The translations under genes were made by a program, and so were the position numbers. 64,000 nucleotides of DNA from a virus. The stretch is from the IMG/VR virus record IMGVR_UViG_3300043436_001870, positions 1-64,000 of that record; one strand, written 5' to 3'. Each line of letters begins with the position of its first letter. The stretch's first letter is position 1. Below the pieces are notes generated by a model. The model ran no database searches, was not told where the DNA came from, and saw only the letters and a program-made list of their open reading frames with translations. Positions 22,046-64,000 of the stretch are shown piece by piece.

Positions 22046-22057
22046 TTCCCTAAAAGA

Positions 22058-22285
22058 ATGGAAATTACTATTTACACTGATAGTCTAACAGTGGATAAGG
22101 CATATAGTCAAGTAAAAGTAACTATTGATGTTGATGTTGAAGATATGCTTAGTCAACTAAATGCTGTTCACAAAAATGATCATACAATATTAAATGATCA
22201 ATATGAGAAATTAAGTGAACAGTTTGATGAACTTAAGGAAGCATATGATGAACTCTGTGAAAAGTTTGACATGTTAGACCCGTAA
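22058..22285 (+). CDS. Acidic coiled-coil protein, 75 aa
   Basis: The second half is a heptad-rich coil (YEKLSEQFDELKEAYDELCE). It lies between the HNH and helicase genes. Unknown role. Confidence 0.6.
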   Translation: MEITIYTDSLTVDKAYSQVKVTIDVDVEDMLSQLNAVHKNDHTILNDQYEKLSEQFDELKEAYDELCEKFDMLDP

Positions 22286-22296
22286 ACCCCGTTTGT

Positions 22297-24418: not shown

Positions 24419-24450
24419 TAGTTTCTATATATTAGCATAAAAATTACCAG

Positions 24451-24858: not shown

Positions 24859-25064
24859 AATTTGTCATCTGGTTAGTTAAATCAACCTTATTTCATCTGC
24901 TAATCTTATTAGCGATGATTATTATGGCAACTACCTGGGAAGCAGGTGTAGATAAAACTGTAGCATTATACATGACAGTTATCACACTTGTTGTACTTGT
25001 AGTAGGGAAGCTAATTTATTTTAGAAAAAATGCAAAACAATCTAACAAAACAGACCAGAAGTAA
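24855..25064 (+). CDS. Two-span membrane protein, 69 aa
   Basis: Hydrophobic helices at about residues 4-25 and 34-54. Coupled with the 135-aa membrane gene; the two may form a complex. Ends basic. Confidence 0.6.
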   Translation: MKFVIWLVKSTLFHLLILLAMIIMATTWEAGVDKTVALYMTVITLVVLVVGKLIYFRKNAKQSNKTDQK

Positions 25065-25263
25065 ATCTAAACCTTCTTGGAATACAGAAGACTTCTGTAG
25101 ATACTGTGACCTTGATACTCTAAAAGACATTGCTAAAGACAATGTATCAGATCCTGATGATGAGTATGAGTATGACAAAGTGTTTAATGAAATCTATATC
25201 AGTACAGGTATCTGCCGTCATTGTAAAGAAGAAGAGACGGCAGATTTCAGGGATGATGATTAA
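25030..25263 (+). CDS. Small zinc-ribbon-like protein, 77 aa
   Basis: Two C-x2-C pairs (CRYC near 23, CRHC near 64) could hold one zinc. Acidic middle. Overlaps the preceding gene by 35 nt. Function unknown. Confidence 0.6.
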   Translation: MQNNLTKQTRSKSKPSWNTEDFCRYCDLDTLKDIAKDNVSDPDDEYEYDKVFNEIYISTGICRHCKEEETADFRDDD

Positions 25264-30105: not shown

Positions 30106-30438
30106 ATGTCAGAAGAAGACAAGCTAAAAGTCATAAATCTACTGATGTTACTACAGGTTGCAGTTTATGCAGCTGATGAAACAATGCATATAACTTGGTT
30201 TAATAGACACAAAACTAAGGCTATATCAAAAAATTTTCTTAATATTGTCCTTCAGGAACACGGAGATGTGATCAAAGTATTTTGGGATATCCCACAGCTA
30301 GACATTAATCAGATCATCAAAACCTTAGATGAATTTGGTAAAGCTGCAGGAAGTCTTAATTATTATGATCTCAAACCTGTTACTGAATTAATAAACCAAT
30401 ATAAACAACAAGAAAAAACAAAAAAAGATGGACATTAA
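30106..30438 (+). CDS. Hypothetical helical protein, 110 aa
   Basis: I start at ATG 30106 (MSEEDKLKVINLLM); the upstream frame extension overlaps the lipoprotein. Entirely helical with no motif. Overlaps the next gene by 11 nt. Confidence 0.6.
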   Translation: MSEEDKLKVINLLMLLQVAVYAADETMHITWFNRHKTKAISKNFLNIVLQEHGDVIKVFWDIPQLDINQIIKTLDEFGKAAGSLNYYDLKPVTELINQYKQQEKTKKDGH

Positions 30439-30889
30439 AATGATTGCCATTATCGGATTATCCCTTGCAGCAGTATGGGGATTTGTGTCAGCATTAATCA
30501 ATGCAGCAGCTAACAGACAATTGACTCATGACAATGAGGAATTGTCATCTGAAAACAACAAGCTTAATCATAGTATCTCCAGAAGAGAGAAGGATGTAGC
30601 AAAGCAACTTGATCAGATTACTCATCTTGAAAGTAAGTTGAGTACTGCTAATCTACTCCTGCATAATAAGGATGTGGAGATTGCTGAACTTGAAGGTAAG
30701 CTTAAGGCTACCTCCAGAACTAATACTAAGTTGCTTAAAGAAGTAGCCGATGACATTACTGTAAATGTTAAAGCTGGTGATGATGCACCTGTTAATGTCC
30801 AAAAGCCAAAGAGACGTAAACCTTATAAGAAGAAGAAGTCAAATGCCGGATCAACTACCAGTAACAATCAAGCTGGAGAAAAGAAGTAA
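30428..30889 (+). CDS. Membrane-anchored coiled-coil protein with basic tail, 153 aa
   Basis: N-terminal anchor (MIAIIGLSLAAVWGFVSALI), a coiled coil (about 35-105), then a Lys/Arg-rich tail (KPKRRKPYKKKKS). The topology would place a basic, nucleic-acid-binding tail near the membrane. No family recognised. Confidence 0.65.
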   Translation: MDIKMIAIIGLSLAAVWGFVSALINAAANRQLTHDNEELSSENNKLNHSISRREKDVAKQLDQITHLESKLSTANLLLHNKDVEIAELEGKLKATSRTNTKLLKEVADDITVNVKAGDDAPVNVQKPKRRKPYKKKKSNAGSTTSNNQAGEKK

Positions 30890-31220
30890 TCAGCTTGTTG
30901 TAAGCAACGAATTAGGTAGAACAAAATTGGACCTGTTCATCAAAGGATTAGCCGATGGTGAACAGGTCTTTGTAACTTATGAAGTTGCTAGTAATAGTGG
31001 AAACTATGCTCAATTATCAAAGCTGCATAAATGTATCAGAGAACTTGCCAGTTTTACTGGTAACACCTTTGAGGACATGAAGCTGCAGGTGAAGATGAGA
31101 GCTGGTCTATGTATGGATAATAACTGCAGATCTTTTGGAGATTGTTCTGTTCAAGAACTAAGTCTAGCCATTCAGGCTGCAGTTGAGATTGGAGACATTG
31201 TAGGATTTAATCTTCATTAA
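30843..31220 (+). CDS. NinB-like or unknown protein, 125 aa
   Basis: I start at ATG 30843 (MPDQLPVTIKLEKRSNQLVV). The middle (AQLSKLHKCIRELASFTGNT, FEDMKLQVKMRAGLC) and the end (SVQELSLAIQAAVEIGDI) recall the helical NinB-type recombination proteins, but similarity is loose. It overlaps both the coiled-coil gene (47 nt) and the antisense gene end (14 nt). Confidence 0.5.
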   Translation: MPDQLPVTIKLEKRSNQLVVSNELGRTKLDLFIKGLADGEQVFVTYEVASNSGNYAQLSKLHKCIRELASFTGNTFEDMKLQVKMRAGLCMDNNCRSFGDCSVQELSLAIQAAVEIGDIVGFNLH

Positions 31221-31524
31221 CTTCTGTTCTTGTCTTTGTTTCTGGGTCATATTCAACTGACTTAAGTAGACTCTGCTCTCTTGCAGAACTCTCTACAAGA
31301 TTTAAAAAGGCCAACACAGTTGACATGTGGTACTCAAAAGGTCCTTCAATTTTTCCGTCTGTTATATTTTTCATGACGGAATTAAAATGTTCTTGATCTT
31401 TAAAAGGTATAAACTCTAATAGAAGCTGGTTGAATCTATAAACATATTCAACAGGAAGATCTAATTTTACAGTTGTTCCTTCTTTATATACTTCAAGAAT
31501 CATTTTCTTTTTTTCTTCACTCAT
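31207..31524 (-). CDS. Lone minus-strand gene, 105 aa
   Basis: A single leftward gene inside a long rightward block. The product (start MSEEKKKMILEVYKEGTTVK) has a normal globular composition and is followed by no other leftward gene. Its end overlaps the end of the plus-strand gene by 14 nt. A host-type promoter lies at 31542-31572. An independently controlled regulator is plausible; no family recognised. Confidence 0.7.
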   Translation of the reverse strand: MSEEKKKMILEVYKEGTTVKLDLPVEYVYRFNQLLLEFIPFKDQEHFNSVMKNITDGKIEGPFEYHMSTVLAFLNLVESSAREQSLLKSVEYDPETKTRTEVNED

Positions 31525-31541
31525 TTTTATTATAGTTTATA

Positions 31542-31572
31542 CAAACATACAATGGAACAAATCAACCTGCAA
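31542..31572 (-). promoter_or_regulatory. Bacteroidota-type promoter for the lone minus gene
   Basis: On the minus strand, TTG (31572-31570), 20-nt spacer, TATGTTTG (31549-31542). The transcript would start about 31535, giving a short leader to the ATG at 31524. It overlaps the UDG start codon on the other strand, so the two genes could interfere. Confidence 0.55.
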
Positions 31573-32256
31573 GAAATCCAAACTAAACTGTATGAGAAAG
31601 TCAAGGTATCAGGTTGGGGACCAGCTATGGTTAACCAAGTTATGAGCCAGGACTTTCTGAAGATCCTTCAGACTCTCTTAAAAGAGTCTCAGGATGGTAA
31701 GAAATTTACTCCTCAGATTAAGTATCTGTTTAATGCCTTTGAGAGTTGTCAATATGATAAATTGCAAGTTGTAATCATTGGCCAAGATCCTTATCCAAAT
31801 GTAAATGTTGCTGATGGTATTGCATTTAGTTGCAGTAATCTAGGTGTTGTTGAGAAATCACTTGAATATATGTTCAAGTCTATTGAAGAGACTGTTAATC
31901 CTGATTATGTTCAGGATCCTGATCTTAGAAGATGGGCTAGTCAAGGTGTTTTACTTTTGAATTCTGCTTTGACAACAACATTAAACAAACCAGGATCTCA
32001 TCAATTGTTATGGAAACAATTCATGACAGAGATACTTGATCATCTTTTATGGAATAAACCTGATATTGTTTATGTATTCATGGGTAAGAAAGCTGCAGAG
32101 TTTGCAGACATGATACCTGATAATCATCTAAAGATACATGTATCTCATCCGGCTAGTGCTGCCTACATGAAATCTTCAAAGTGGGACTGTGGTGACATGT
32201 GGAACAAAATAAATAAATATCTAGAAGAGAATGATAAAAGAAAGATACATTGGTAA
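31552..32256 (+). CDS. ung: Uracil-DNA glycosylase, family 1
   Basis: 234 aa, the usual UNG length. Catalytic water-activating motif GQDPYP (Asp79), then LLLNSALTT (uracil-binding Asn), and the minor-groove loop SHPASAAY near 203 (His). It removes uracil from DNA, giving base-excision repair. UDG near the replication genes is typical for crAss-like phages. Overlaps the following gene by 26 nt. It may protect phage DNA or clear host uracil DNA. Confidence 0.9.
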   Translation: MEQINLQEIQTKLYEKVKVSGWGPAMVNQVMSQDFLKILQTLLKESQDGKKFTPQIKYLFNAFESCQYDKLQVVIIGQDPYPNVNVADGIAFSCSNLGVVEKSLEYMFKSIEETVNPDYVQDPDLRRWASQGVLLLNSALTTTLNKPGSHQLLWKQFMTEILDHLLWNKPDIVYVFMGKKAAEFADMIPDNHLKIHVSHPASAAYMKSSKWDCGDMWNKINKYLEENDKRKIHW

Positions 32257-32521
32257 AGTTGTAATTAGTAGTGCTCTTAATGCTAAATCAGGAGAATGCT
32301 GGTTTTATATTGGATCTGAAAACTTTACAAGAGTAGTAGAAAATAAGTGTCTTTATGATGCTCTTTCAGACTATGGTATTGGTTATGAGAAGGCTAAAGA
32401 AATAGTAAAAGAATGTGCAAAATCTTTTGATTCTAAAAATAGATTTGATCTCTATACTACTGATCTTTACAAGCCTTTAGGGAATAGTACCAAACCTGCA
32501 AAAAGAAATAATAATGAATGA
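32231..32521 (+). CDS. Hypothetical basic protein, 96 aa
   Basis: Begins inside the end of the UDG gene. Alpha/beta pattern with a Lys/Arg-rich tail. Overlaps the next gene by 8 nt. No family recognised. Confidence 0.6.
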   Translation: MIKERYIGKVVISSALNAKSGECWFYIGSENFTRVVENKCLYDALSDYGIGYEKAKEIVKECAKSFDSKNRFDLYTTDLYKPLGNSTKPAKRNNNE

Positions 32522-33104
32522 TTTTTATGAATATATTGAGAAGTTGGGTATAACACCCAATGCCTTCTTTGTATTATGGTCAATCAAGGTTAGTAGAAGA
32601 ACTAATATTCTCAACCCTTGGGGAGAACTAAGACTTCTCAAAATTGCTGAGCTTATTGATGATCAGTATAAGATCAGTACTAAAGGTCAAGATGTGCTTG
32701 TAGAGGGTGAACAACTGCTCTGCAATGGGTCTATGCCTAAGAAAAAGCCAGGGCCTGTTATTGCACACCTTGAGGAGAATGCTGTTAAGTATCTTTTGTT
32801 GTTTCCTGCTGGTAAGTTACCTAGTGGTAAAGCTGCTAGAGTAAACATAAAGGATATCATAAAAGCATTTGTATGGTTTTTTAATAACTATGACTATAGT
32901 TGGGAAACCATTCTTACTGCTACTGCTTACTACATTGATACATATGAGCAGAATAAATTCATGTACATGAAGAACTCTCAGTACTTTATTCGTAAACAGA
33001 TAACAGGTGTCAACTTTGAGTCTGATCTTGCAAGCTATTGTGAGATTATATTAAACGGAGGTTATGATGAATCCGGTAACCAAATAATTGAGAAAGTTGT
33101 ATGA
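32514..33104 (+). CDS. Replication-linked hypothetical, winged-helix-like, 196 aa
   Basis: N-terminal helices followed by RLLKIAELIDDQYKISTKGQ suggest a winged-helix fold. The C-terminal half is helical (IKDIIKAFVWFFNNYDYSWE). It lies two genes before the DnaB-type helicase, where loaders or initiators often sit. A loader role is inference only. Confidence 0.6.
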   Translation: MNDFYEYIEKLGITPNAFFVLWSIKVSRRTNILNPWGELRLLKIAELIDDQYKISTKGQDVLVEGEQLLCNGSMPKKKPGPVIAHLEENAVKYLLLFPAGKLPSGKAARVNIKDIIKAFVWFFNNYDYSWETILTATAYYIDTYEQNKFMYMKNSQYFIRKQITGVNFESDLASYCEIILNGGYDESGNQIIEKVV

Positions 33105-49808: not shown

Positions 49809-52800
49809 TTATCTCCAATTTTGTGCTTTTACAAAGTTAGTTACTGCCATTGCAGGATCCAAAGATTTACCTGTTGCTCCAAATGATCTAGCTAAATATG
49901 TTAAGGGTTTATACCCTTCAATCGGATTATCAGTGCCTCCTTCCTGCATCCATACATATGGTCCTTCACGTTGATCAAAGTAGGCCTTTGAATCATCAGT
50001 ACCAAAAAGACTATGCATAGCACTTGTAGTTAAGCCTCCTATGATTTTCCCATAGTTGTCAAATGTATTGTGCATTGCAACTGAGTCAAACTTTAACATC
50101 TCTAGATAGTTACCACCAGTTAACCATTGTTGTTGTTCATTTTTTAAACCCATAGCCATCATCAATGCATGGTTAGATAACCAACCCATAAACTTAAAAT
50201 CTGTTTCAGTTTCTGATGTGCCTATGAATGGTAATGGTCCAGACTTCTTACGGAGTTTTTCAAACTTATCTGGATCATCATAATCAAATCCAAATATCAT
50301 TGATATTGATAATACAAGTAATGCTAAGCTTCCTACATCAACTAGTGATTTAATCACAGCAATTTTTTCAGAATCTGTTCTAGATCTATAGTAGTCACTA
50401 CCTTGTCTGATACTTCTTACAAGAAGTCTTAATGACTCAACGTGGTAACCCATTACTGTATCTCCTACTGCTGCATCAAATCTATATTGAGGATCTCTCC
50501 ATGAACCTCTAAACTGGAATCGATTTAAGAACATTCTTACAAACCATCTCTTGAATGCAATGATCCATTTGAATAGTAAGTATCTATCAGCATCAGCATA
50601 GTCAAACTTAGCAAATGAACCGGCCAGGTTATTTGTTACACCCTGTACCTTATTCTTAAATGCTTTGAATTTTTCTCCACCAACTCCCCATTCAGGATCT
50701 ACTCCTTCTTTAATTCTTATCTGACCATCTACAGTTTCCCATGCATCCATGTAGGGAATTCTTTCTGTTCTACCATTTACAGTTCTTTCTACGGTTTGAT
50801 GATACATCATGGCACCAAAGATTGAAACTGTTGAGTTTAATTCTGTCCATTTTCTAAAGCTAGTCATCCAACTCAAACCACCAAGGGCATCCTGTGCAAA
50901 GGATCTTGACATCTGCTCACCAAACTTTTCCTCAAATCTTCCCTGATATGCATCAAAGACCATGATCAATTGTTCATTATGAGTCTTTGGTTTACCTGTA
51001 TATAAGTTCATGCTGAGATCCATTGCTGCATTTGTTGCCCACAATTGACCTTTACCATAGTTAGCAGTATTAAAGTATCTACCTCCTGCTGCTTCAATCA
51101 TAGATTGAATTCTTAATGAGAAGTCATTCTTTAATGCTGATGGAATGTCTAATGCAAAATAACCAAAAGCAGAATACTTCATGATCTGCTGTGCTGTTTT
51201 TGTTACCCATCTTGCATCATTATCATTACCAAGAGCACCCTTTGCCATCACACCTTCAAATTCTCTTTCAATAAAGTTGTCTATAGCTCTTTGTCTTACT
51301 GATTTATCCTTCTGTTCCTGTTGCCAAAGAGCCTTCTGTTTAATATTATTAGCAATGTTTCTTGCTTTTATTTGGCTATTAGATATACCTTTCTGAATGT
51401 TTACATAGTTAGATGGATCATGTAGTACAGACTGTAAAGCTCGGGCCATTGGATTCATCTCAATCAGAGCTCTTTGTTTTTCAGCTGACAACATATATCT
51501 AAGCATACCTCCTACAACATCCAATGATACATCACTTACACCTAAGTCGGACAAACCATGAATAGGAATACCTGCATACTGATCATCATATAAATCTCCA
51601 TCCATAATCATTGATTGCTCTTCATAATTGAAGCCACGATCAAAGTCATCTGATGAACCTTTAAATAAATTTCTGACATTCCTCCACCATCCAGATATAG
51701 GATTTTCTGGTTTCTTATCTGCATTTAGGAAGTTCAGATTTCTTTCATAGTTACTAGTCATGAATCTTGGAATGTCCAAGAATAATTTAGATTGACTAGG
51801 ACTTCCCTCTTGAAATCTTAAATGATATTTAGAGAGAGCAAGAATAGCATCATAAAGAGGCTTATCATTCTTCTTAATATCAAAGAACTGTTGATTGATG
51901 AATCTATTATCAGGAGCATCAAGACGTGGTAAGTGTCTACCATAATTATCTACAGTAGCCAATGTAGGATCACCTTGTTCTAATGCCTCAAGCATTGTTA
52001 CTTCCTTTACAATATACTCATCCTTTACAATACGTTTGGTATACTGCTGTGAAGGAACACCAAGAACTGTTTCAGTTTCACCCTTAGAATTAGTAAATGT
52101 AAATGTCTCATAGTGTTTAGCATTGCTAGGTCTTGTGACATTCCATGCTCTTACTCTTGAGATCTTTGTTGTAGGTGCCCCTGTTTTATCTCGGGTCTGC
52201 TTCATTGTATGGTTTTCATCAAACCATGCCTTTACTTCAGGATATTTTGAGATAACTGTGTTATAGAATGTTGGATCAAGAATTTTATCTGCATTATCTG
52301 GAGTAATATCCTTAGAACCAATTGTATCTATAAGAGTTTTAATAGGAATAAGACTAAATATTGAATTGGCTGTATCAAGATAATAAACTGTAGGAACAGA
52401 CTGTCTCAATTCTGAGAGCTCGTTGTATAGTTCCATGATTCTTTGCTTGTCTGCCTTTGACAAACCATACAAGGATCTCTTATCCATAAGACTACTAAAT
52501 CTTGAAGACTCAAATTGATCTAGTCCTCTTGTAGATTTGATTTCAAATAAATCATTTAATTCCTGCTGCTCTAATTTAGTGAGACCGGTGATACCTATAA
52601 GAGCATCCTTAGCCTTTTCAATCTTCTCCTCAACAGCTTTAATTGCAGCAATGTTGTTTACACTCATTGCTGTACCATCTGGCTGCATATCCTCATCTCT
52701 ATAAGGATTAAGGAGCTGTCTCATTTCTTCATACAACTCATCAATCTTAATAGTAGCAGCAACAGTTGCAGGGAGTTTAGCTTTGATAGCATTGATCTCA

Positions 52801-55529
52801 TCCACTATTCTCTGCTGTTCTTGGTAGTAACTTTCCTTCAGTTGAATTCTTGTATTCTTTGCTATCCACTGAAGTCTGAGTTTATCCTTTACTTGTTGAG
52901 GATAGTTCTTTCTGCTAAGCTCATCCTCATATCTTGTAAGGGCATCTGTAAACAAGGTAGGCATGACCTCTGATGTATAGAAGTCCTTTGAGGCTTCTCT
53001 AAACTCTCTCAGTCTCTGTGCTATTGCAATTTCCTCAGGGCTCTTTAGTTGACCGGCTGCATTAAAATTTGAATGCATTAGTCTATACTCCTTCCATAAT
53101 ACATCAAGACCTTCAGTTACGGCCTTGTTTTCTTCCTCACTGTTTCTATCTACAGTAGTACTAAGGTTTTGAATTCTAGCAAGCAAATCTTTTCTTCTTG
53201 CCTCAGCTATAGGACCAACTGTATCATTATCATCCTTCTTAAATATTTTATATCTTTCATAATACTCTTTTACAAAAGGAGTATGAAAGTATGTTCTCAT
53301 GAAAATATCCTTCTCTAACTTGAGACGGATTGCTTCTGAGTCATCACCTGTTTGCTGAGCTTTTAATACGGCATCTTCAATGTCTTTGTCCATCTTAGCT
53401 GTTGCAGCTCTATAATCCTTGTAAGGATTGATGATGGTTCTCACTTCTTTGTCACTTGTAGTGCCACTTGCATCTCTTGCTGGTCTGCGATCAACAAATG
53501 TAATCTTTGCACCAAATGCTGCTGGATTGCTTTGATTGTATCCTGCTCTATCAAGTATTGGTTTTACATCACTAATAAAAGCATTACCTCTACTCTGTGC
53601 AGTAGTCATGACATCAGTTACTCTGTTCTTTACCCACATTGCAAATCCAAATACAATTGGATCCTGGTTATAAATGTAACCTTCCAAGAATGAATTTAAA
53701 GCACTGGCATCACCAATGTTACCCTGCATCAAATAATCAATTTTCTCTTCAGAGAGATATGCTCCTTTCTTAAAGGAGATTCTCTTAAGCTTCTCATAGT
53801 TCTCAGCAGCTACACCAGTAAGCTTTTCTCCTTTTTCAATTCTTTCTTTAAATGACAAGAATGCTTTTAGCTGATCTGGTTCAAGACCCCAGTAATCTTT
53901 CATACGGAGAAGTCTAGTTTGTTCAGATAAACCAAGTTTGTCTATATCTTGCATCAACTTCTTGTACTTATCATCAATGTACTGCTGCATTGGTTTCAAC
54001 TGAGTTTTAATTAACTCACTTGTACCATTGAAATATACCTTTCTTGTAGAGATCTTAGCTGTATCTATCTGACCCTTGATATTCTCTACCAATTCAAAAA
54101 TAGGATTCTCTGCCTCAATGTATCCATCTTGTTGAGCCTGTGCAAGAGTTTCCTTGAAATTATCAATGAAATTTTCCCATCCATTAAGAACATCATTGAA
54201 GTAGAATACAGTAGCAATATTATCCTTAGAATTTGGATCCTTTACAAGCCCAGTAATAGCACGGTTCATTTTAGTAGCCATACTTAATAGTCTGTCCAAA
54301 CTCTGAACAAATGCTGTAGTGTGACTTTGTGCAGTACGTATCTCCTGCATTATTTTGTCAATCTCCTGGGTTATAAAAGTAGTTGCATCCTGAAATGGTG
54401 TAAGGTTTCTTTTAATTTCCTCAAGGTCATTTCTATTATACTTATCTTTGATAATCTCAGCAGCAGCTGCATAGTCCTTGTTCTTTTGAATAAGACCTAA
54501 GTACTTATTCATTACAACATACATCTCATTAGTAGACTCAATGAGTGCATTCTTTGGTAAGTTATCTAACCCCTGTATTACTTCTTGTAGGTCAGTATAG
54601 TATTTGACTACATCTTCTTCAGACACAGCATCTAGATCAAGAATAAACTTGTCTAGAACAAGCATGTCTGCTAGTTGATCTAATGTGGTGTCTACACTTA
54701 ACTTCTCAATGGTAATCTTTTCCTCCTTGCCAAAAATCTTTCTTAAGATTTGGCGGATTGCATATAGAATATCAGAGATGAACTTATTAAAGGCACTGTC
54801 TTTCTTCTCTACTGCAGCTTCAGTAAGAGCCATTACTAATAGCTCTTCCATAATAACAGGATCGTCCTCTGCTAATTCAGGGTAAGCTTGTTTAGCTGCC
54901 TCAAGAAGTTTTGGACCCATTGATGTCTGAAGTACCTGGCTAACCAGTTTATCAAACAATGGTTTATTAGATAACTGAATTGCTCTAATTACAGGGTGAG
55001 CAAACTCGTGGAATGCAGTCTTCTCTGTAATCAAATTAGGAATTACATATACTCTCCCCTGAAAGAAGAATGCTGGCTGACCTTTCCATGGATTGGCAGA
55101 ACCTGCTGTAATTTCTGCAGCTGTCTCTGCTGTAATAACATCATAAGGAATACTTGTACTCTGACTTAAAGCAAAAAGAAACTGAGTCATTCTTGCTGTT
55201 ACCTTAAGACTACCCTGTGACTTTGCATCAAGAGTAATAGGATTAACAATTGTACTGTATGCTGGATCTGTATTTATTGATGTTTGAAATCCATTATACA
55301 TAGCACCAAGTGGTACATTCTTTAATCCCGGAGCATGAATTGCTAATGTCTCAAGCATGTCATTAAACTGCTCAATTGTAGGAATCTCTATATCCTCACC
55401 AGCTTGTTTGTTCTGGTTAATTGTAAGATATGCACGTTTTACTTCCTGCTCTGCTATTTCAGCAAGACCAATTGATTTAGCATATTCAATAAGGGGATCA
55501 AGCACCCCAGGCATAGGACAAGCTACCAT
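49809..55529 (-). CDS. Giant virion protein with zincin domain, 1906 aa
   Basis: Near residue 173 is TAFHEFAHPVI, an HExxH zinc-protease motif, with a following EELLVMAL segment that may give the third ligand. The middle is long helical and coiled-coil stretches. Near 1735 is one strong membrane-like segment (SLVDVGSLALLVLSISMIFG). Large internal virion proteins with such domains are ejected with DNA in crAss-like phages. It starts right at the RNA polymerase stop. A role in crossing the host envelope is inference. Confidence 0.8.
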   Translation of the reverse strand: MVACPMPGVLDPLIEYAKSIGLAEIAEQEVKRAYLTINQNKQAGEDIEIPTIEQFNDMLETLAIHAPGLKNVPLGAMYNGFQTSINTDPAYSTIVNPITLDAKSQGSLKVTARMTQFLFALSQSTSIPYDVITAETAAEITAGSANPWKGQPAFFFQGRVYVIPNLITEKTAFHEFAHPVIRAIQLSNKPLFDKLVSQVLQTSMGPKLLEAAKQAYPELAEDDPVIMEELLVMALTEAAVEKKDSAFNKFISDILYAIRQILRKIFGKEEKITIEKLSVDTTLDQLADMLVLDKFILDLDAVSEEDVVKYYTDLQEVIQGLDNLPKNALIESTNEMYVVMNKYLGLIQKNKDYAAAAEIIKDKYNRNDLEEIKRNLTPFQDATTFITQEIDKIMQEIRTAQSHTTAFVQSLDRLLSMATKMNRAITGLVKDPNSKDNIATVFYFNDVLNGWENFIDNFKETLAQAQQDGYIEAENPIFELVENIKGQIDTAKISTRKVYFNGTSELIKTQLKPMQQYIDDKYKKLMQDIDKLGLSEQTRLLRMKDYWGLEPDQLKAFLSFKERIEKGEKLTGVAAENYEKLKRISFKKGAYLSEEKIDYLMQGNIGDASALNSFLEGYIYNQDPIVFGFAMWVKNRVTDVMTTAQSRGNAFISDVKPILDRAGYNQSNPAAFGAKITFVDRRPARDASGTTSDKEVRTIINPYKDYRAATAKMDKDIEDAVLKAQQTGDDSEAIRLKLEKDIFMRTYFHTPFVKEYYERYKIFKKDDNDTVGPIAEARRKDLLARIQNLSTTVDRNSEEENKAVTEGLDVLWKEYRLMHSNFNAAGQLKSPEEIAIAQRLREFREASKDFYTSEVMPTLFTDALTRYEDELSRKNYPQQVKDKLRLQWIAKNTRIQLKESYYQEQQRIVDEINAIKAKLPATVAATIKIDELYEEMRQLLNPYRDEDMQPDGTAMSVNNIAAIKAVEEKIEKAKDALIGITGLTKLEQQELNDLFEIKSTRGLDQFESSRFSSLMDKRSLYGLSKADKQRIMELYNELSELRQSVPTVYYLDTANSIFSLIPIKTLIDTIGSKDITPDNADKILDPTFYNTVISKYPEVKAWFDENHTMKQTRDKTGAPTTKISRVRAWNVTRPSNAKHYETFTFTNSKGETETVLGVPSQQYTKRIVKDEYIVKEVTMLEALEQGDPTLATVDNYGRHLPRLDAPDNRFINQQFFDIKKNDKPLYDAILALSKYHLRFQEGSPSQSKLFLDIPRFMTSNYERNLNFLNADKKPENPISGWWRNVRNLFKGSSDDFDRGFNYEEQSMIMDGDLYDDQYAGIPIHGLSDLGVSDVSLDVVGGMLRYMLSAEKQRALIEMNPMARALQSVLHDPSNYVNIQKGISNSQIKARNIANNIKQKALWQQEQKDKSVRQRAIDNFIEREFEGVMAKGALGNDNDARWVTKTAQQIMKYSAFGYFALDIPSALKNDFSLRIQSMIEAAGGRYFNTANYGKGQLWATNAAMDLSMNLYTGKPKTHNEQLIMVFDAYQGRFEEKFGEQMSRSFAQDALGGLSWMTSFRKWTELNSTVSIFGAMMYHQTVERTVNGRTERIPYMDAWETVDGQIRIKEGVDPEWGVGGEKFKAFKNKVQGVTNNLAGSFAKFDYADADRYLLFKWIIAFKRWFVRMFLNRFQFRGSWRDPQYRFDAAVGDTVMGYHVESLRLLVRSIRQGSDYYRSRTDSEKIAVIKSLVDVGSLALLVLSISMIFGFDYDDPDKFEKLRKKSGPLPFIGTSETETDFKFMGWLSNHALMMAMGLKNEQQQWLTGGNYLEMLKFDSVAMHNTFDNYGKIIGGLTTSAMHSLFGTDDSKAYFDQREGPYVWMQEGGTDNPIEGYKPLTYLARSFGATGKSLDPAMAVTNFVKAQNWR

Positions 55530-58500
55530 TTACTTAAAGCATTTATTATTAAACTCAGCAATTTCTTCATCTGTTACAGGAGCACCATATTGTACAACAA
55601 TACGTCCTTCACCAAAAGTCAAGTAGTGAGGATTGATATATCCAAACTTCTCAAATAATTGTTGTGAAAGATACAAAAAGGTTTGGACACCTATGGTTGT
55701 TTTATCAGCATACTGTGCATCAGCAGCTGCCGGGAAGTATTCATTGTAACCAATGAGGTACTGACCATATCCATTAGAATCAAATGCAAGGTTGACACCA
55801 GATTCTTTCTTCTCCATAAGAGCAGCAATGTCTTCATCAATCATTGCTTTGTTCTCTTTAAGAGTAGCATCTGTCCATGCAGCCTTAGCATTGAAGTCCT
55901 TGATCTTACCTTCCTTAGCTTGAGAGACACGTGGTAATGATTTAGTTCTTATACCCAAAGAATTGTCACCCATAGCTCTGTAAACAACATTAGTACCAGC
56001 TGTATCTCTACTTTGTGTTGATGCTTCATTCCTCACAAATATTGTATTAGGATAGTCAACACTTAGCTGTATAGCATTCTGATCTGTTAGTTTATCAAAC
56101 TGATTAACTACCTTTTTGGTTTTTTCATCTGTGCTTGTAAGGAGGTTGAATGTAAGTACACCTGTAGATGTATCCTGCAGCAATTCAAACAAAGTTAAAG
56201 TCTGAATATCACCAACTCTTTTCTTATTTGTAGACTTACTGATTTTACCAGCAACTACTTTTTTAGAACCAAAGTCACCGTTCCATTCAATGTTTTGACC
56301 CCCCGATTGACCATTTCTATTTAGAGCATAAGCAATGTTTGTCGCTCTAGATAAAGCTACATACTTTAATTGGTTTTTTTCTTCTAGGGAAACAGGTGCC
56401 TCAATAATTGACTCTGTATCTACAAACACATTTGTATATGTTGATCCTTGTGACTTATGAATAGTATGAGCATAGCCATAGTCTATTGACTTTTTAAGAA
56501 CTACTCTACCTTTTTTATCCGTAACGTCAAATGGAGTCATTATAGAATCTTTCAATCCACTGTATATTGCAAATGCTTGATTTGCTCTTAGCTCTCCTGA
56601 TTCAACCTGAGCATCTAAAGATTTTTGATATTCAACCAGTTTCTGAGCAAGAAGATTAATAATTTCTTGAGAGGTGCTTCTACTTAATACAAACTTCTCA
56701 TATATATCACCATCACCATCTATTTCTTGTAGTTGTATTGTATATCCAGTTAGTTCAAGACCTCCTAGACCATTAAATGTCATTTTATTTTCTGCTTGAA
56801 CGGATAGTACTTCATAATCAACAGAGTTATTTATTTGAAATGTTCCACCTTTTTTATAGCCTACATTTTCATATGCCATAATAATGTCACCTATAACATA
56901 TTCTAGAATCTTAGACGTATCTACTTCTTTATCAAACCAGATTTTGTTTCTTACAACCTGGTTAAAATCCTCTACCCTTTCATTAGAATGTGACAATATT
57001 CTTACAAAGTTTCTATTGTTCTTAAAGTTTTCAGACTTAAAAGCAGCAATAGCTTGTCTTGTGAAATCAACTCCAGTCTTTGTTGTAACAATGCCTTGAT
57101 TACCAGAAAGTTCTGTTTTAGCATCTATAGCTGATGTATCCTTTTTCTGATTATTACGAATGTCTTCAAGTATAGGACCTAATGGATTTGATCCAGCTTG
57201 TCTTTCTACTTTAGTCAGTTCATACTTATAGGGATGATCAAATGCTTTAGATCTCTTAGAGGTAGTCTTATCTTCCTCTACAGGATTAAGCTGTGCAGGA
57301 TCTCCAATGAATAAGATCTTTGTTTTACCTTCTCCAGCATAATCAGACAGAGCATCAAATAACTCATCACCTACAAGTGAAGCCTCATCTACAATTACTA
57401 CATCAGGTTTATAAAGAGATTCTTTTTGTACAGTTAACTTAATTTTACGAAGGTCTGTCTTAGTAAGCTTAGATGAGCTACCAAGACCTAGAAGCTTCTG
57501 TAATGTCACAGCTCCTGTCTTTGCTAGTTTGGCAATTACCTTCTTAGCTTTATGAGTAGGTGCTGTTACATTAATAGAGAGACCTCTTTGTCTCATGTAC
57601 TCAAGGGCAATCTTTGTGATACTTGATTTACCTGTACCAGCATAACCCATCAGAGTAAATACATCCTGGTTAGGATTATCAATGAAGTCAGCAATCTGCT
57701 GCAATGCTTCAAGCTGTTGATCATTAGGTGTAAATGGTATATCAAGCTTATCAAGATTTAGATTAATACCATTTATTGTAACAATACGACCAGGAGTCTC
57801 TTCCTCTGTTTCAAGTGGTGTTTCTAATTCAGATACAGTGTCATCTGTAATTCTAACAATATCTGAAGGTATTCCCTCAGGATTAAATGCGTAGTTCTTA
57901 AGCTTGTTACTTACATTCTTATTGTCAATTCTATACTGATTATTAAACAATGATGTATACTCATCAAGAACAGTATTAGGTCTAGCCTTTAGATCAGTAA
58001 GAAACTTATCATAGGATGACTTAAGAAGACCATAGAACATATCATTAGGAACAGCTCTGATTAAGCTGAACGCAGATGTAGTATCAATACCTGTCTGAAG
58101 TAATGCATATAAACCAAATCTTGCAAATACCTTTGAGATTCTTTCATTCTCAATTGGATCTTCTACCTTAATTACATTAGGGTCAGCTAGTTCTTCAATC
58201 TGCTGAGTATATAGATCAAGTTCTTCAGGTGTAGGTCTGTCACCAGTAAACTTAAGGTTGTTAATAGTAACCTCTTGTTTCTTACCATCATTGGTTACAA
58301 ATGATGATCCTCCTGTACTAATCTCAAGTCTATCAAGAACCTCATACTTGTCTAAAAGTGATGGGTTCTCCTTACCAATTTCAAGTACTTGCTTAGCATA
58401 AGATCTACCACCAAAGAACATGTGTCCATGGTAGTTGAGATTATCCAAAGCCATATCTCTTAGAGTAGCCTCATAAGCTTTAAATGCTGGCTTTGAATCA

Positions 58501-61500
58501 TTCTTGAATGTATTTAGATGCGTCTTATAGATAGATGAGTTCTTTAAGTTTTCTGGACTATTCTTCTCAAAAGATCTTAGGACTTCTCTTTCATATACAA
58601 ACTTAGTATAGAGAGCCTCAGCTGTCTTAGCATCATACAATGCAAATACAGATGACTCCACAGGTGCTACCTCGTTCTCCCACATAGAATCTTTAGAATA
58701 CAATTCCTGTTGGAAAGTTGTAAGGATATCAGACTTACTTGCATACAAGATACCATTTTTTACTCTTGCTCCGGCACGAAGATATGTGACACCTTCAATA
58801 GGAACTTGTACTTCAAATCCTCTGTATACACCTTGTGTCTGATTGAATCTATAGTAATTAGATTGGAATACATAGTTAATCAAATCACTTCTGAATCTTT
58901 CAATGTACTCATCAGCATCAAGACCAGTCATCTTCTTATATGCAGATATAGGAGGCATACCCGAGATATCCTTATCAGTAAGGGATGCTATTTTTCTATT
59001 TACCTCCTTGCTATCTCTTAATGGGAATAGGTCACTGAATAAATCAAGGATGAAGTCTTGAATCTTGTAGGCAGACACCGGTGAATTTTCAATGATGTTC
59101 TGAATAGACTCGGGCTCAATACCATTAGCAAGGTCATCAATCTTAGCTAGTCTTAATCTAGCATCAAGAAGTGTCTCTGTCTTAGTACGGTCAAAGTTCA
59201 AGTTCTGAGTAAGCTGAGTAATCTGTGAAGACATCTCACTTATTTCAAGGAAGTGAAGGAATACAGAACGGTCATAATTATCAAAATCATTTGACTTATT
59301 AAGACGGCCTGCTAGGTCTGCTTTCTTAAACTCACCTATACCTTCTACAAGTCTATCAATTTCTTCAAAAACAAGTCTCTTACTAGGCTTCTTGTTCTTA
59401 TACTTGGAGGTAGAATCCTTATCAGACTTCTCTTGGAAATCTGCTACAAGCCAGTTAAAGCCATACTTATTATCACCCTTATCAGCAAATAGTATACGGT
59501 CTCTTGCCTCATTTCTAAAGAAGTTACCTACATCACCATAGCCAATAGCTCTAGAGTACTGACTCTTAAACTTACGTTGCTCCTTAACAAAGTCACGTAT
59601 GATTGGTTGAGACAAGAAGTATACGGCATCCTCAACAGGTACACCTGCCATGGTCATAAAGAGAAGACTGTTAATCAGCTCCTTGTTACCCTGAACATCA
59701 AAGATCCATGCTTTCTTAGCCACGTCAACAGAACCGTTGATCAATTGGCTGATAATGTCTGAGATCTTGTTTAACTGTTCGGCATCATAATTTGCTGATA
59801 ATGTTATACTATCACCTATCTTGTTGTGTGCAAACTTCAGTCTTTGTGGGTGCTCTACCGAACCTCTTTGAGTCTGAGTAATAATACGATTCTTTGTAAG
59901 AACCAAACCTGATCTACCAAAGATTGATTGAAATGTATTTACAACTGCAATGATACCTAGTACATCCTTCCCTACGTTGTTTGACTGATGCTTATATAGG
60001 TTTCTTCCTACCTCAAATATTTCAGAAAGTCCTTTAGCCTTCTGTGTGCCTGCTCCTTTAGTTTCTTTAGCAATAGTCTCACCCAACGGTTCCATAGTGT
60101 CCGTTGTATTAGGTGTAATAAGACTGCTGAAGTTAAATGGATCAAGAAGAATATCCTTGATTACACCTAGAAGTTGGTTTTCAAGACCGGCCTTATCATC
60201 ACCAAAGTTCATTACTGCAGAGGTCTTGTCTTCATAGTAAGTATCAATAGCTCTAAGTATATCTTTCTCCTCTTCTGTAAGAGTAGAGATGTCTAGATCT
60301 TCACCTAGTTGAACTAATTCTTTTATTTCATTGACTATAGCAGCATCAATTCCAAAACCAAGAATATCAGATATTAAAGCATAGTCTTCCTCATTAACCT
60401 CTCTCTTTGTTTTGATGGTTGGGAAGAAGGTAAACATCTTATCAATGTCAAAGTCACCACCAGACTTAGCAACAATCTCTGCAGGAAGAATAACAATGTT
60501 ACCTGACTCCTCTGGAAGGAATTCAAACACCTCCATGACCTCCATAGAGTTTAGACCTTGAACTGGGATACGTACAGCAGCAGTTGTTACCATTGCTCTG
60601 TTGTCCCCTTGGTTCAACCACCACTCCTGCTTTATAAGATGATTTAATGCATCCAGTCTAGTTACTCCATTCTCATTAGAGTATTTTACTACATCAGCAT
60701 GATTTAGTAAGTTCTTAAATGGACCTTGTAAGGATATCTTGATCTTCATTGCTGATACAGATATCACATTACCTTTCTTATCTAATTTAGGATTATAGAA
60801 TGGTAGACCATTTGTACCACCATATCTTCCTATTTCTTCTTCTGTAGCTGTTCTTAATCTACCTTGTTCAAATCCTACTCCAGATACTTGTACTAATGAT
60901 TCACCAGTTAATTTCTGATTAAGTATTCTCTTCTGAGCAATGTTTACAAGAGCTCTTTCAATTACATCTGCTGATGGAGATAAGTCTAGATCTCTTAACA
61001 GAGTATCTGTAGCTTCATCTACACCTAAGAAGTCTACCTCATGCTCAGACAGTTTCTTACCTGGGCCAGACAATTCACTCTTAATGAATTCAATCAGACT
61101 TTTCTTAGTAGAACCTACCTGATCTCTGATTTTCTGTTTCTCAATCTCTACAAGACTGTCTAGAATCTTTTCAAATCTAGATGCATATCTAGCAAACTTT
61201 GTAGAAAGCTTATCATTCTCAGCATTCCAGAGTCTGTATCTTTCATTCTTGTCTGCTATATTTGGTTTGTAATCTACAGGAACCTTATTTTCAAATAGAC
61301 CCTGCTCAATTAATTTACGTAGCTGAGAAGAGAATGTAACTTTCTTTTTGTAATACTCAGCTACTTCTAACTGATCCTTGAAGTAATCAAGGAAAACAGT
61401 ATTCTTTGTAAACTGATAAGTTGGTGCATCAAATGCATAACCCTCAGTTGTTCTTTGATTATCATTGTAGAACTTATCTGCCTTACCATCTTTAGTAATA

Positions 61501-64000
61501 GTGCTAACCTTAGACCCTGACTGCATCAATGCATAGTCAATATCCTGGTCAACCATTTTGTTATGAAGGTTTTCTAATGGAGTATTCTTGATAACACTTG
61601 GAATCAACGGCATCAATGAGTATTTGTGGAATGCTGTTGCAGGTAATCCTGTACCCATAAGTGGGCCCCAATACTGCATCTTTTTAACTGGGAAGAAGTT
61701 TAGCACATCATCCATGGCTACTTCTTCACCCTTCACAATCTTGTTATATAGAAACTCCTGATTAGGTGTCCATTTATTCAATGACATCAATAATGCTCTA
61801 TAAGCATCAAAGCTGATCCAACCCTGACCATCTGCTTCAGTCATCTCAGTATACTTAGAGAATACTTTTTTAATAGATGCCTCGGCTTTAGCAACAGTTT
61901 CTGGACTTGCATTTACTTTCTTTAGACGGTCCTTCTCAATCTTGAGAGCTGCTTCTAAATACGTATCATAGTAAATTGATTTACTTACAACATCCTGCAT
62001 TACTGCAGAGTTCATAGTATTACCAAATGATGCTCTTGTCTTACCTCTTGTAGCAGCATAACTGACCTGAGCAAACTTGCTGTCAATATATGCCGTCATT
62101 GCTGGACCTGTTCTAGCAAAGTCACCGGTTGCTGCAATACCAGCATTACGTTTAAAGAAGTCATCTACATTCTTGTAGAGAGCTGGGTCACCATAGAACA
62201 TTACACTAAACTCATACTTATGGATCCAGTCATTAGCTGTATATCCATCAATAAGAGCCGTAATCATTTTTTCTCTTCGTTCAGCAGTAAGTCCGTTGAT
62301 AACATCCTTAGGTGATCTTTCTGAATCACCTGTCTCAAGCTTTTCCAAAAGACTGTTTATCACACCAGTATTACTCAGGATGCCACTTTCCTGAAGCATT
62401 TTAGCATTCTTCTGTCTTTGCTCAGTAAGATAATCTGTAATGTCTGTTTGTAATAAATTCTTGAGATCAAGATTACCATCAACAAACTTTAGAAACTGTT
62501 CTGATGTTTGCACCTCAGGACTTGTAGCTAACTGTTCCTTAAGGTTAGTAATTGTCTCGGGCTTAAGTATACCATTAAATATTACAAAGTCTTGAGCAAC
62601 TTCACCATAGGTTTTATCACCAACAGTTACTGTTGCCGATGGATCTCCATTCTTAAGTTTTTGTATACGTTCAAACTCTGAAGACAGGTACCCAATTAGT
62701 GTATCTGCAAATTCAGTTTTACCACCAGCAGTCTTAAAGTTTTTTAGATCAATGTAATGTAACTTACCATTAAGTAACTTGTACAATAATGTAGTAGCCT
62801 TGTCTGCATGTCGGGTTGCCTCAGTAGCACCGTACAGAGTAAGCATCAAGAAATCTCCTACAAGCTTTGTTGTTTCATCAGCAGAGGATGCATCAATACC
62901 ACTACGTTCCATTATGTTACGTGTGTTGGTATATTGATTCATGAACCCAGCCATGTTATTAAGCTGAATAGAAACAGGAACTTGCTGACCACTACTAGAA
63001 TCTTTATAAGTTCTTCTTACACCATTTTCATCAAAGGTTGATTTATATATGATGGTTGATTTTACAAATGGATTTCTAGAAGGACTAAGATGACTCATGC
63101 TTAAATCATTGGCATTAGGCACACCTTCCTGAGTAAGCTCTGTAATAGATTTAGCTCTATTCCATTTACCAATCTGATTAGATATAGTACTTCTTAATGA
63201 TCTTTCTTGCTGGCTTTGATTGTTTGCATTGTTTACTGTAGTATCTGCAAAATCATCAGACCATTTTAATTGGAACTTCTGTAATCCGTTGTATATACCA
63301 GAACCACCACCAAGAACTTGTCTTACAGAAACTTGTTCAATCTTTTTAGGAAGCTTATATGCTGAATCTGATTTATAGTTCTTATATATATCTGATGGTG
63401 CCTGAATTTTTATAGGATTTAATAGACCATCCTTTGATTTGTTATAGGCATAAATTGCCTGTAGGTAGTCCATGGTACGTTTACCATAGTTAGCAAGGCC
63501 TGACTTATAAGCATCAGCCTTAGCTGATTTACCATCTTCTAATACAATACCTATGCTATCAAAAAACTTATAGATATCATCTATATTGTCTTTTGTAAAT
63601 TTAGTATTTCGGAATTGTCTATAAACAGCATTAACATTTAGAATATTATTACCATAGATGTCTTTAGTAATATATTCTCCTTCATCTGCAATAGCAAAGT
63701 TATCATTCCATCTTCTTCCTACTTTTCTGAACTCACCAGTTGCCTCAACAGGACTTACAATATAGGATGTTTCTTTACGTCCAAATCCTCCTTGAACATC
63801 CTGAATAAATCTATCAGTCTGCTTAAGTTCAAGCATTCTCAGATTAATTCTAGGCATTGTCAGAATCTTTGTAAAGTCAGTCCAAAGATTCACTGATGCT
63901 TCATCTAAGTTCTGTGGAGAACCTATCTTGCTCATTAATTCCTTAATAATAGGATAGTCTTCAGCAGCAAGCTTTAACTTCTCATAAACTTCATTATCTG
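55530..64000 (-). CDS. Giant RNA polymerase-helicase polypeptide (partial)
   Basis: The frame is open past the right edge, so the ATG at 63935 (2801 aa) is probably not the true start. About residue 1160 (from 63935) is GGDFDIDKMF, the catalytic Asp triad of crAss-like virion RNA polymerases (phi14:2 gp66 type). From about 2060 is a full SF1 helicase: GYAGTGKSS, VDEASLVGDE, GDPAQLNP, THKSQGSTY-like HTIHKSQGSTY, and VALSRAT. After about 2630 a further domain (NTIFVRNEASTQSRDTAGTN, GIRTKSLP) resembles DUF7831-type proteins. It should transcribe early genes after injection. Confidence 0.85.
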   Translation of the reverse strand, partial: DNEVYEKLKLAAEDYPIIKELMSKIGSPQNLDEASVNLWTDFTKILTMPRINLRMLELKQTDRFIQDVQGGFGRKETSYIVSPVEATGEFRKVGRRWNDNFAIADEGEYITKDIYGNNILNVNAVYRQFRNTKFTKDNIDDIYKFFDSIGIVLEDGKSAKADAYKSGLANYGKRTMDYLQAIYAYNKSKDGLLNPIKIQAPSDIYKNYKSDSAYKLPKKIEQVSVRQVLGGGSGIYNGLQKFQLKWSDDFADTTVNNANNQSQQERSLRSTISNQIGKWNRAKSITELTQEGVPNANDLSMSHLSPSRNPFVKSTIIYKSTFDENGVRRTYKDSSSGQQVPVSIQLNNMAGFMNQYTNTRNIMERSGIDASSADETTKLVGDFLMLTLYGATEATRHADKATTLLYKLLNGKLHYIDLKNFKTAGGKTEFADTLIGYLSSEFERIQKLKNGDPSATVTVGDKTYGEVAQDFVIFNGILKPETITNLKEQLATSPEVQTSEQFLKFVDGNLDLKNLLQTDITDYLTEQRQKNAKMLQESGILSNTGVINSLLEKLETGDSERSPKDVINGLTAERREKMITALIDGYTANDWIHKYEFSVMFYGDPALYKNVDDFFKRNAGIAATGDFARTGPAMTAYIDSKFAQVSYAATRGKTRASFGNTMNSAVMQDVVSKSIYYDTYLEAALKIEKDRLKKVNASPETVAKAEASIKKVFSKYTEMTEADGQGWISFDAYRALLMSLNKWTPNQEFLYNKIVKGEEVAMDDVLNFFPVKKMQYWGPLMGTGLPATAFHKYSLMPLIPSVIKNTPLENLHNKMVDQDIDYALMQSGSKVSTITKDGKADKFYNDNQRTTEGYAFDAPTYQFTKNTVFLDYFKDQLEVAEYYKKKVTFSSQLRKLIEQGLFENKVPVDYKPNIADKNERYRLWNAENDKLSTKFARYASRFEKILDSLVEIEKQKIRDQVGSTKKSLIEFIKSELSGPGKKLSEHEVDFLGVDEATDTLLRDLDLSPSADVIERALVNIAQKRILNQKLTGESLVQVSGVGFEQGRLRTATEEEIGRYGGTNGLPFYNPKLDKKGNVISVSAMKIKISLQGPFKNLLNHADVVKYSNENGVTRLDALNHLIKQEWWLNQGDNRAMVTTAAVRIPVQGLNSMEVMEVFEFLPEESGNIVILPAEIVAKSGGDFDIDKMFTFFPTIKTKREVNEEDYALISDILGFGIDAAIVNEIKELVQLGEDLDISTLTEEEKDILRAIDTYYEDKTSAVMNFGDDKAGLENQLLGVIKDILLDPFNFSSLITPNTTDTMEPLGETIAKETKGAGTQKAKGLSEIFEVGRNLYKHQSNNVGKDVLGIIAVVNTFQSIFGRSGLVLTKNRIITQTQRGSVEHPQRLKFAHNKIGDSITLSANYDAEQLNKISDIISQLINGSVDVAKKAWIFDVQGNKELINSLLFMTMAGVPVEDAVYFLSQPIIRDFVKEQRKFKSQYSRAIGYGDVGNFFRNEARDRILFADKGDNKYGFNWLVADFQEKSDKDSTSKYKNKKPSKRLVFEEIDRLVEGIGEFKKADLAGRLNKSNDFDNYDRSVFLHFLEISEMSSQITQLTQNLNFDRTKTETLLDARLRLAKIDDLANGIEPESIQNIIENSPVSAYKIQDFILDLFSDLFPLRDSKEVNRKIASLTDKDISGMPPISAYKKMTGLDADEYIERFRSDLINYVFQSNYYRFNQTQGVYRGFEVQVPIEGVTYLRAGARVKNGILYASKSDILTTFQQELYSKDSMWENEVAPVESSVFALYDAKTAEALYTKFVYEREVLRSFEKNSPENLKNSSIYKTHLNTFKNDSKPAFKAYEATLRDMALDNLNYHGHMFFGGRSYAKQVLEIGKENPSLLDKYEVLDRLEISTGGSSFVTNDGKKQEVTINNLKFTGDRPTPEELDLYTQQIEELADPNVIKVEDPIENERISKVFARFGLYALLQTGIDTTSAFSLIRAVPNDMFYGLLKSSYDKFLTDLKARPNTVLDEYTSLFNNQYRIDNKNVSNKLKNYAFNPEGIPSDIVRITDDTVSELETPLETEEETPGRIVTINGINLNLDKLDIPFTPNDQQLEALQQIADFIDNPNQDVFTLMGYAGTGKSSITKIALEYMRQRGLSINVTAPTHKAKKVIAKLAKTGAVTLQKLLGLGSSSKLTKTDLRKIKLTVQKESLYKPDVVIVDEASLVGDELFDALSDYAGEGKTKILFIGDPAQLNPVEEDKTTSKRSKAFDHPYKYELTKVERQAGSNPLGPILEDIRNNQKKDTSAIDAKTELSGNQGIVTTKTGVDFTRQAIAAFKSENFKNNRNFVRILSHSNERVEDFNQVVRNKIWFDKEVDTSKILEYVIGDIIMAYENVGYKKGGTFQINNSVDYEVLSVQAENKMTFNGLGGLELTGYTIQLQEIDGDGDIYEKFVLSRSTSQEIINLLAQKLVEYQKSLDAQVESGELRANQAFAIYSGLKDSIMTPFDVTDKKGRVVLKKSIDYGYAHTIHKSQGSTYTNVFVDTESIIEAPVSLEEKNQLKYVALSRATNIAYALNRNGQSGGQNIEWNGDFGSKKVVAGKISKSTNKKRVGDIQTLTLFELLQDTSTGVLTFNLLTSTDEKTKKVVNQFDKLTDQNAIQLSVDYPNTIFVRNEASTQSRDTAGTNVVYRAMGDNSLGIRTKSLPRVSQAKEGKIKDFNAKAAWTDATLKENKAMIDEDIAALMEKKESGVNLAFDSNGYGQYLIGYNEYFPAAADAQYADKTTIGVQTFLYLSQQLFEKFGYINPHYLTFGEGRIVVQYGAPVTDEEIAEFNNKCFK

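Follow-up and report, generated by a model that had tools for sequence, protein, structure and literature searches.

A proposed disulfide-linked cargo chain around a virion RNA polymerase carrying an inserted helicase in a crassvirus-related phage

The stretch of DNA analyzed here (the window) comprises bases 1-64000 of the 113,164-base virus record IMGVR_UViG_3300043436_001870, and contains part of a gene for a giant virion RNA polymerase (RNAP) at 55530..64000, which continues to position 67172 of the record and lies, like the other features of this gene and its downstream neighbor located below, on the minus strand. With the adjoining sequence of the same record, the complete open reading frame (ORF; 55530-67172) encodes 3,880 amino acids (aa), consisting of about 600 variable residues, a zincin-like segment, the RNAP body, a superfamily 1 (SF1) helicase, and a C-terminal domain of about 190 residues. 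This polymerase (referred to as R) is flanked by an upstream giant protein of 1,702 aa (U) and a downstream giant cargo protein of 1,906 aa (D; 49809..55529). We found that the facing termini of the three proteins each carry a single Cys, which in related phages is lost where two proteins are fused and gained where one is split. We consider it quite likely that U, R, and D make up a chain with Cys-free bodies and disulfide-joined ends, which would be threaded through the tail, released by reduction in the host, and bring along the helicase as an accessory module.

In the window phage (its genome is labeled L008), U ends with NSLDCK, R starts with MINC and ends with NKCFK, and D starts with MVAC, and there is no other Cys in the three proteins. 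The two Cys of R are Cys4 (67161-67163, outside the window) and Cys3878 near its C-terminus (55539..55541), and the only Cys of D, Cys4 (55518..55520), is the proposed partner of Cys3878. The genome is not short of Cys, as the muzzle protein contains 15 and a 1,246-aa neighbor 43. The same pattern was scored in a first sample of 85 dereplicated loci, with the first 15 and last 12 residues taken as protein ends. Cys is present at the C-end of U in 49/51 loci, at the N-end of R in 52/60, at the C-end of R in 84/85, and at the N-end of D in 83/84, while the C-end of D has one in only 4/63 and the N-end of U in none of the phages checked. Internal Cys are rare, with 1 in 60,377 aa of U, 27 in 288,069 aa of R, and 16 in 154,468 aa of D, and the Cys content of the RNAP ORFs is 0.06%, vs. 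1.69% in shorter frames of the same loci (a set including unselected frames). Helicase domains within RNAP ORFs have 1 Cys in 6,681 aa, compared to 69 in 4,359 aa of standalone Dda-like helicases (p=4e-27, indicative only, as the rows are related), and thus the helicase module has become adapted to its cargo.

Named phages follow the same rule, and the terminal pattern in the cultured phages phi14:2 and crAss001 is identical to that of the window phage. In phi14:2, gp78 has Cys1797 as the last of its 1797 residues, the RNAP has Cys3 and Cys2179 of 2180, and gp76 has Cys3, with no others. In crAss001, gp47 has Cys2339 of 2341, gp50 has Cys at 5, 1334, and 2404 of 2412, and gp49 has Cys5, and in crAssphage, gp45 has Cys1956 of 1957 and gp44 has Cys3, besides some internal Cys. 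Phages cr1_1, cr85_1, and cr128_1 also agree with the rule, and in the annotated RNAP ORF of cr110_1 the first Cys is at position 17.

The exceptions in the first sample are informative. Among R proteins lacking the N-end Cys, 7/7 have no separate U and have at least 1,600 aa ahead of the zincin, vs. 49/49 R proteins with a separate U that do have the Cys (Fisher p=4e-9), and the remaining R without it is a broken ORF (L026). Fusion of U was judged by ORF length, zincin position, and absence of a separate U; a U profile search of the U-fused RNAP ORFs found nothing. The two apparent U proteins without a C-end Cys are not U, one being a 628-aa protein of cr118_1, in which U is fused to R, and the other the first part of the broken L026 polymerase. 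In the sole R without a C-end Cys, that of L013, the frame is broken within the helicase, and the Cys is found on the second piece. D proteins that do have a C-end Cys are short and are followed by a further protein (D2) with an N-end Cys (L051, L057, and L068). Taken together, these fused, split, and broken cases therefore indicate that the Cys marks gaps between proteins, present on both sides of a junction between two chains and absent where the junction is a peptide bond.

A second sample was obtained with a phi14:2/crAss001-type query (limits, first 18 and last 15 residues). Here the C-end Cys of R is present in 62/68 loci; of the six exceptions, two look like R-D fusions, two are broken frames, and L226 and L239 are unexplained. 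The N-end Cys of R is present in 35/61, and nearly all ORFs without it are long and have the zincin 1,400-2,100 residues in, i.e., are U-fused, L211 being a misfit. L226 also contains 10 internal Cys.

Several other proteins were noted for their Cys content. Between the muzzle and U genes of the window phage (L008:286-8922) are three proteins (844, 927, and 1,083 aa) without any Cys, as expected for ejection cargo. The muzzle gene is followed by that of a giant 2,473-aa protein (L008:8924-16345), which combines an ART-PolyVal domain (E=1e-10) with a peptidoglycan-binding-like segment and has four Cys in two close pairs (458/467 and 2268/2278). Leptolyngbya phage Lbo-JY46 (L169), which has a crAss-like capsid, contains what looks like a two-protein version, a 1,552-aa protein (20603-25261) with its sole Cys as the last residue, followed by a 2,748-aa protein (12355-20601) with its sole Cys at residue 4; this pair had no RNAP profile match, and all are annotated as hypothetical. 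In crAssphage (L162), the 857-aa gp47 (30141-32714) has its sole Cys at 856, beside the C-terminus, and is possibly a further linked unit, although its gene neighbor gp46 has no Cys.

We propose the following mechanism. R would be the middle unit of a three-protein cargo chain in the order U-R-D, in which disulfides formed after assembly would join the C-end of U to the N-end of R, and the C-end of R to the N-end of D. The trio would then pass through the narrow tail in sequence, threaded from N to C and partly unfolded, as a single chain of about 7,500 residues. All other Cys would have been lost because they could mispair in the unfolded chain. The reducing host cytoplasm would separate the units, which would refold, and R would transcribe early genes. 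The helicase would ride along as an accessory module between the RNAP body and the conserved C-terminal domain, and in the first minutes would most likely open strands of the incoming phage DNA or strip off proteins bound to it. If true, such a chain predicts equal copy numbers and a fixed order of U, R, and D. Several properties of characterized phages are consistent with this scheme. Virions of crAss001 contain gp47, gp49, and gp50, its tail constrictions are <50 angstroms so that cargo must partly unfold, N-to-C ejection is expected for its cargo protein gp45, and disulfides stabilize its tail (PMC10172136). The equivalent cargo proteins of phi14:2 are annotated as virion proteins by tandem mass spectrometry (MS/MS). 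For crassviruses in general, we lean towards the view that giant injected proteins are coupled head to tail by terminal-Cys disulfides into a redox-releasable chain, in which peptide fusions and Cys-Cys junctions would be interchangeable, and domains that join the chain would be purged of Cys.

A number of points weigh against this scheme. The cargo of crAss001 is unresolved in the maps and no inter-protein disulfide was seen; conserved Cys codons prove selection for the residue, not for a bond; and the disulfide would have to form post-assembly in a reducing cytoplasm. The virion RNAP (vRNAP) of phage N4 has 0 Cys in 3,500 aa and thus no terminal Cys, and the small cargo proteins gp51 and gp52 also lack Cys, so by analogy Cys depletion alone may serve threading or stability. 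In the second sample, L211, L226, L208, and L239 do not fit the rule cleanly. Finally, the present data bear on the presence of the helicase, not on its task.

An alternative, which we regard as rather unlikely, is that the terminal Cys serve another pairing role, such as metal bridging, a tag for packaging or scaffold attachment, or another thiol adduct. The end Cys are conserved in both position and identity, but the sequence does not specify their chemistry, and any free end could bear a tag. However, a tag on each protein predicts neither the lack of Cys at the outer ends of the chain (the N-end of U and nearly always the C-end of D) nor its loss at fused junctions, and two ligands are usually too few for a metal site. 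It is very improbable that the Cys codons are instead a DNA- or RNA-level junction signal, e.g., for translational coupling or as an insertion site: the genes are adjacent or overlapping in most loci, but in crAss001, cr85_1, and cr128_1 the U gene lies on the strand opposite to R and D and still ends in Cys, the codon may be TGT (69) or TGC (15), and the Cys lies anywhere from 1 to 9 residues ahead of the stop. A DNA-level motif was rejected on the opposite-strand U genes and the mixed codons.

The first-pass annotation, made from the window alone, had described the polymerase and helicase as one open frame whose true start lies outside the window, and both statements hold. No stop interrupts the frame between the window edge and 55530, and in the retrieved adjoining sequence it begins at 67172 with an ATG that shares one base with the stop codon of the preceding 1,702-aa gene. 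The probability of 3,880 open codons occurring by chance at the local base composition is about 1e-123. A frameshift, chimeric contig, or assembly error as the source of the fusion is hardly conceivable, since numerous independent contigs (41-91% identity) and two deposited genomes share this architecture, even if L013 demonstrates that such an error can occur (its frame break inside the helicase is not shared by the related L093). The frame is intact in L011 (87-89%), L012 (41%), L093, L094, L017, L096, and others. The break in L013 falls in a lysine-rich stretch (..KKKKTRRV) and is probably a homopolymer sequencing error.

The RNAP body (residues 1600-3095; 57888..62375) was delimited by phmmer, AlphaFold with Foldseek, and profile-profile comparison, with homology ending at about residue 3095. 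It matches the phi14:2 polymerase (6vr4) by phmmer (E=5e-22). The AlphaFold model of residues 1600-2660 has a predicted local distance difference test (pLDDT) score of 85, and its only significant Foldseek match is 6vr4_A (E=1.5e-32, 1,068 columns). A profile-profile comparison with the phi14:2 RNAP, crAss001 gp50, and two relatives covers 753 columns (E=2e-48). The three Asp of the catalytic metal-binding motif DFDID (residues 2240-2244; 60441..60455) are invariant in an alignment of 42 relatives. So is Lys1850 within FHKYSLMPL (61605..61631), which aligns to the gp66 family in the profile comparison and is likely the motif of the second double-psi beta-barrel (DPBB-B). The polymerase is thus a crAss-type two-barrel enzyme with both barrels in one chain, and by analogy with its relatives in phi14:2 and crAss001 it would be present in virions and transcribe early genes. 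In cr108_1 (L007, MT774385), the RNAP gene is interrupted exactly within DFDID: of its ORFs 5605-14508 and 14799-17195, the first ends with ..AKAGSD and the next in-frame stretch resumes with LYDIDKMY about 290 bases later, an intron-like interruption at the active site.

The zincin-like domain (residues ~655-845; 64638-65210, outside the window) carries HEAWH at residue 711. No Pfam peptidase family was matched in the 3,880-aa protein, so the HExxH-containing segment is referred to as a putative zincin. The HExxH motif is present in 110/117 ORFs, and zincin and RNAP share one frame in nearly all complete loci. L079, L080, L084, L088, and L089 have HEVFE instead, and in this lineage the peptidase is probably inactive though the domain is retained.

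As for the affiliation of the phage, the same gene block encodes a crassvirus muzzle protein (PF25731, E=1e-28). The nearest named relative of its major capsid protein is that of cyanophage Lbo-JY46 (28.5%), followed by epsilon-group phages, and the phages with related capsid proteins are crAss-like or crAss-adjacent, which by sequence places the window phage in or near Crassvirales.

The helicase (residues 3140-3625; 56298..57755) was delimited by Pfam, PHROG, phmmer, motifs, and homology breakpoints, and matches Pfam AAA_30 (E=1.5e-25), the PHROG Dda-like helicase family (PHROG 325, E=6e-79), and Dda in the PDB (E=5e-17). As proposed earlier, it contains all SF1 motifs (I, Ia, II, III, IV/V, and VI) intact, namely the Walker A GYAGTGKS (residue 3176; 57624-57647), APTHKA, DEAS (3262), GDPAQL (3290), KVER, HKSQG (3572), and LKYVALSRA (3602), and the spacing of about 900 residues from DFDID is borne out at 936. 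We predict it to be an ATPase with unwinding activity of the SF1 Dda-like type.

The further C-terminal domain in the first-pass annotation is also real. It is an alpha/beta domain (residues ~3690-3880; 55533..56105) recognized by Pfam, by comparison with relatives, and by AlphaFold (pLDDT 88). DUF7831 (PF25176) matches the window protein at E=0.012 and 15.9 bits, vs. a curated Pfam cut-off of 27, while the homologous domain of L071 passes the cut-off (E=4e-7, 30.4 bits). Foldseek gave no PDB match for its fold (best E 0.15), and the fold matches scored by Z did not exceed 4.3 and were all of a generic alpha/beta kind.

In two scans of viral contigs, which found about 135 related loci, the helicase proved to be rare. 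A Dda-like helicase lies within the RNAP frame in only 16/136 classified loci, including cr50_1 and cr118_1 (L005 and L006). In unfused relatives, homology to the window protein reaches about residue 3095 and is followed, after a few residues, by the C-terminal domain, which was detected in 75/99 unfused tails. Since the RNAP body thus runs directly into the C-terminal domain, the helicase is, judging from these boundaries, a lineage-specific insert between two normally adjacent parts. The same slot is occupied in other phages by an AlkB-like 2-oxoglutarate (2OG)-Fe(II) oxygenase, a circularly permuted (cp) YpsA/SLOG domain, NADAR, ART-PolyVal, or a divergent helicase (L110). The AlkB-like, NADAR, cpYpsA/SLOG, or ART-PolyVal domains were seen in L108, L117, L136, L143, L102, L095, L118, and L071, and suggest DNA protection or counter-defense cargo.

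SF1 helicases occur within RNAP polypeptides in several RNAP lineages, i.e., the window clade, L022, Suoliviridae (cr50_1 and cr118_1), and L184/L187/L195/L211. On the RNAP tree, the fused state needs 4 changes, 3 of which are forced by well supported branches, and L020, which has no helicase, falls inside the fused clade. The helicase tree has separate groups for the window clade (97/98), L022 with cr50_1 (100/100), and L184/L187/L195/L211 (100/100). A single ancestral fusion inherited by all was rejected on the RNAP tree, although the helicase tree alone is compatible with one origin. Capture from a standalone gene of the nearest relatives was also rejected: a PHROG 325 search of 44 unfused genomes gave one clear match, a separate 574-aa gene in L021's genome, which groups apart from the fused helicases. 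The genome of L015, a relative of L020, is devoid of Dda-like helicases.

The role of the helicase can be read in two ways that are about equally supported, each of which we hold as possible. The first, developed from the first-pass annotation, is that the helicase is a working part of the polymerase, its Dda-like SF1 activity opening the entering genome in cis, or translocating on it, and thereby allowing the sigma-less polymerase to start and move. Of this proposal, the linkage in one polypeptide stands, and injection as virion cargo agrees with homology and gene order, whereas an opening role required in cis is put in doubt by the insert nature of the helicase, which is missing from the close relative L020 and most others and gives way to other enzymes at the same position elsewhere. 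The intact motifs and the repeated occurrence of SF1 helicases in RNAP chains favor some link with transcription or entry, but the genome of L015 lacks a Dda-like helicase, and the helicase tree is compatible with a single origin. The second is that the slot is only a delivery site of a polyvalent protein, so that the helicase, like AlkB, NADAR, ART, and SLOG, would be freed, possibly by zincin cleavage, or otherwise act independently of transcription, for instance in replication start, clearing of host proteins, or counter-defense. The slot itself, the lack of the helicase in close relatives, and the presence of unrelated enzymes at this site favor such a payload, as do the widespread zincin motif and the precedent of polyvalent proteins including N4 vRNAP (PMC5512222). 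However, neither a cleavage site nor a separate product is known, N4 vRNAP is packaged without processing (PMC5512222), and some lineages (L079, L080, and L089 among them) no longer have the second His of HExxH.

Similar to the window protein, phi14:2 gp66 and crAss001 gp50 are two-barrel single-chain RNAPs with DFD(I/V)D, carried as virion cargo with two giant flanking partners. They differ in lacking a helicase, and neither the zincin nor the DUF7831-type C-terminal domain was found in them; the U/R boundary is also placed differently, with the zincin of crAss001 carried by gp47. A related architecture is that of cr50_1 (Cohcovirus) and cr118_1 (Besingivirus) of Suoliviridae, which have RNAP and SF1 helicase in one ORF (4,774 and 4,946 aa, respectively), an upstream zincin, and a C-end Cys. 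In these, however, the helicase lies at the extreme C-terminus, followed by 34-55 residues, the RNAP is continuous with U in one fusion, and the RNAP cores are ~26-29% identical to that of the window phage. Both ORFs are named only “DNA helicase” or “exonuclease V” in GenBank and RefSeq, which hides the polymerase from name searches. Dda-like SF1 helicases such as T4 Dda (PHROG 325) share all SF1 motifs, but stand alone in Intestiviridae beside the uracil-DNA glycosylase (UDG) and PolB, whereas that of the window phage lies inside the virion polymerase and is purged of Cys.

With a HEAWH zincin-like segment, RNAP, and helicase in one chain and exchangeable modules in relatives, the protein also resembles polyvalent proteins such as N4 vRNAP, giant injected multi-domain proteins that combine RNAP and zincin with exchangeable enzymatic modules (PMC5512222), its own injection being presumed. 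N4 vRNAP has an unrelated T7-like polymerase fold, and crAss phages were not discussed in Iyer et al. 2017 (PMC5512222). Thermus phage P23-45 likewise has a two-barrel vRNAP fused to a giant injected protein, but the partner is the tape measure protein and no helicase is reported (PMC10770324).

This vRNAP type, polyvalent injected proteins, and zincin-RNAP links were already known (PMC7886860, PMC5512222, PMC10136315), and crAssphage gp45 is annotated as a zincin protease fusion. The RNAP-helicase fusions of cr50_1 and cr118_1 have been in GenBank since 2020, labeled only as helicase, and a helicase domain in this gene block may already be drawn in Fig. 3 of Yutin 2021 (PMC7886860). We found no mention of the insertion slot or the terminal Cys rule in the accessible literature; an earlier mention in Drobysheva 2021 or Yutin 2018 is possible.

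Crassviruses rank with the most abundant viruses in the human gut, and it is a puzzle how a phage moves megadaltons of folded polymerase through a tail constricted to <50 angstroms while keeping order and equal numbers. If the disulfide reading of the terminal Cys rule is true, a linked train uncoupled by the reducing cytoplasm of the host would be a simple physical answer, and would also explain the loss of Cys in domains that join the chain. In phages without annotation, the terminal Cys can serve as a sequence signature by which to find cargo chains. As seen from the helicase and the other domains inserted at the slot, the virion polymerase also carries exchangeable early enzymes.
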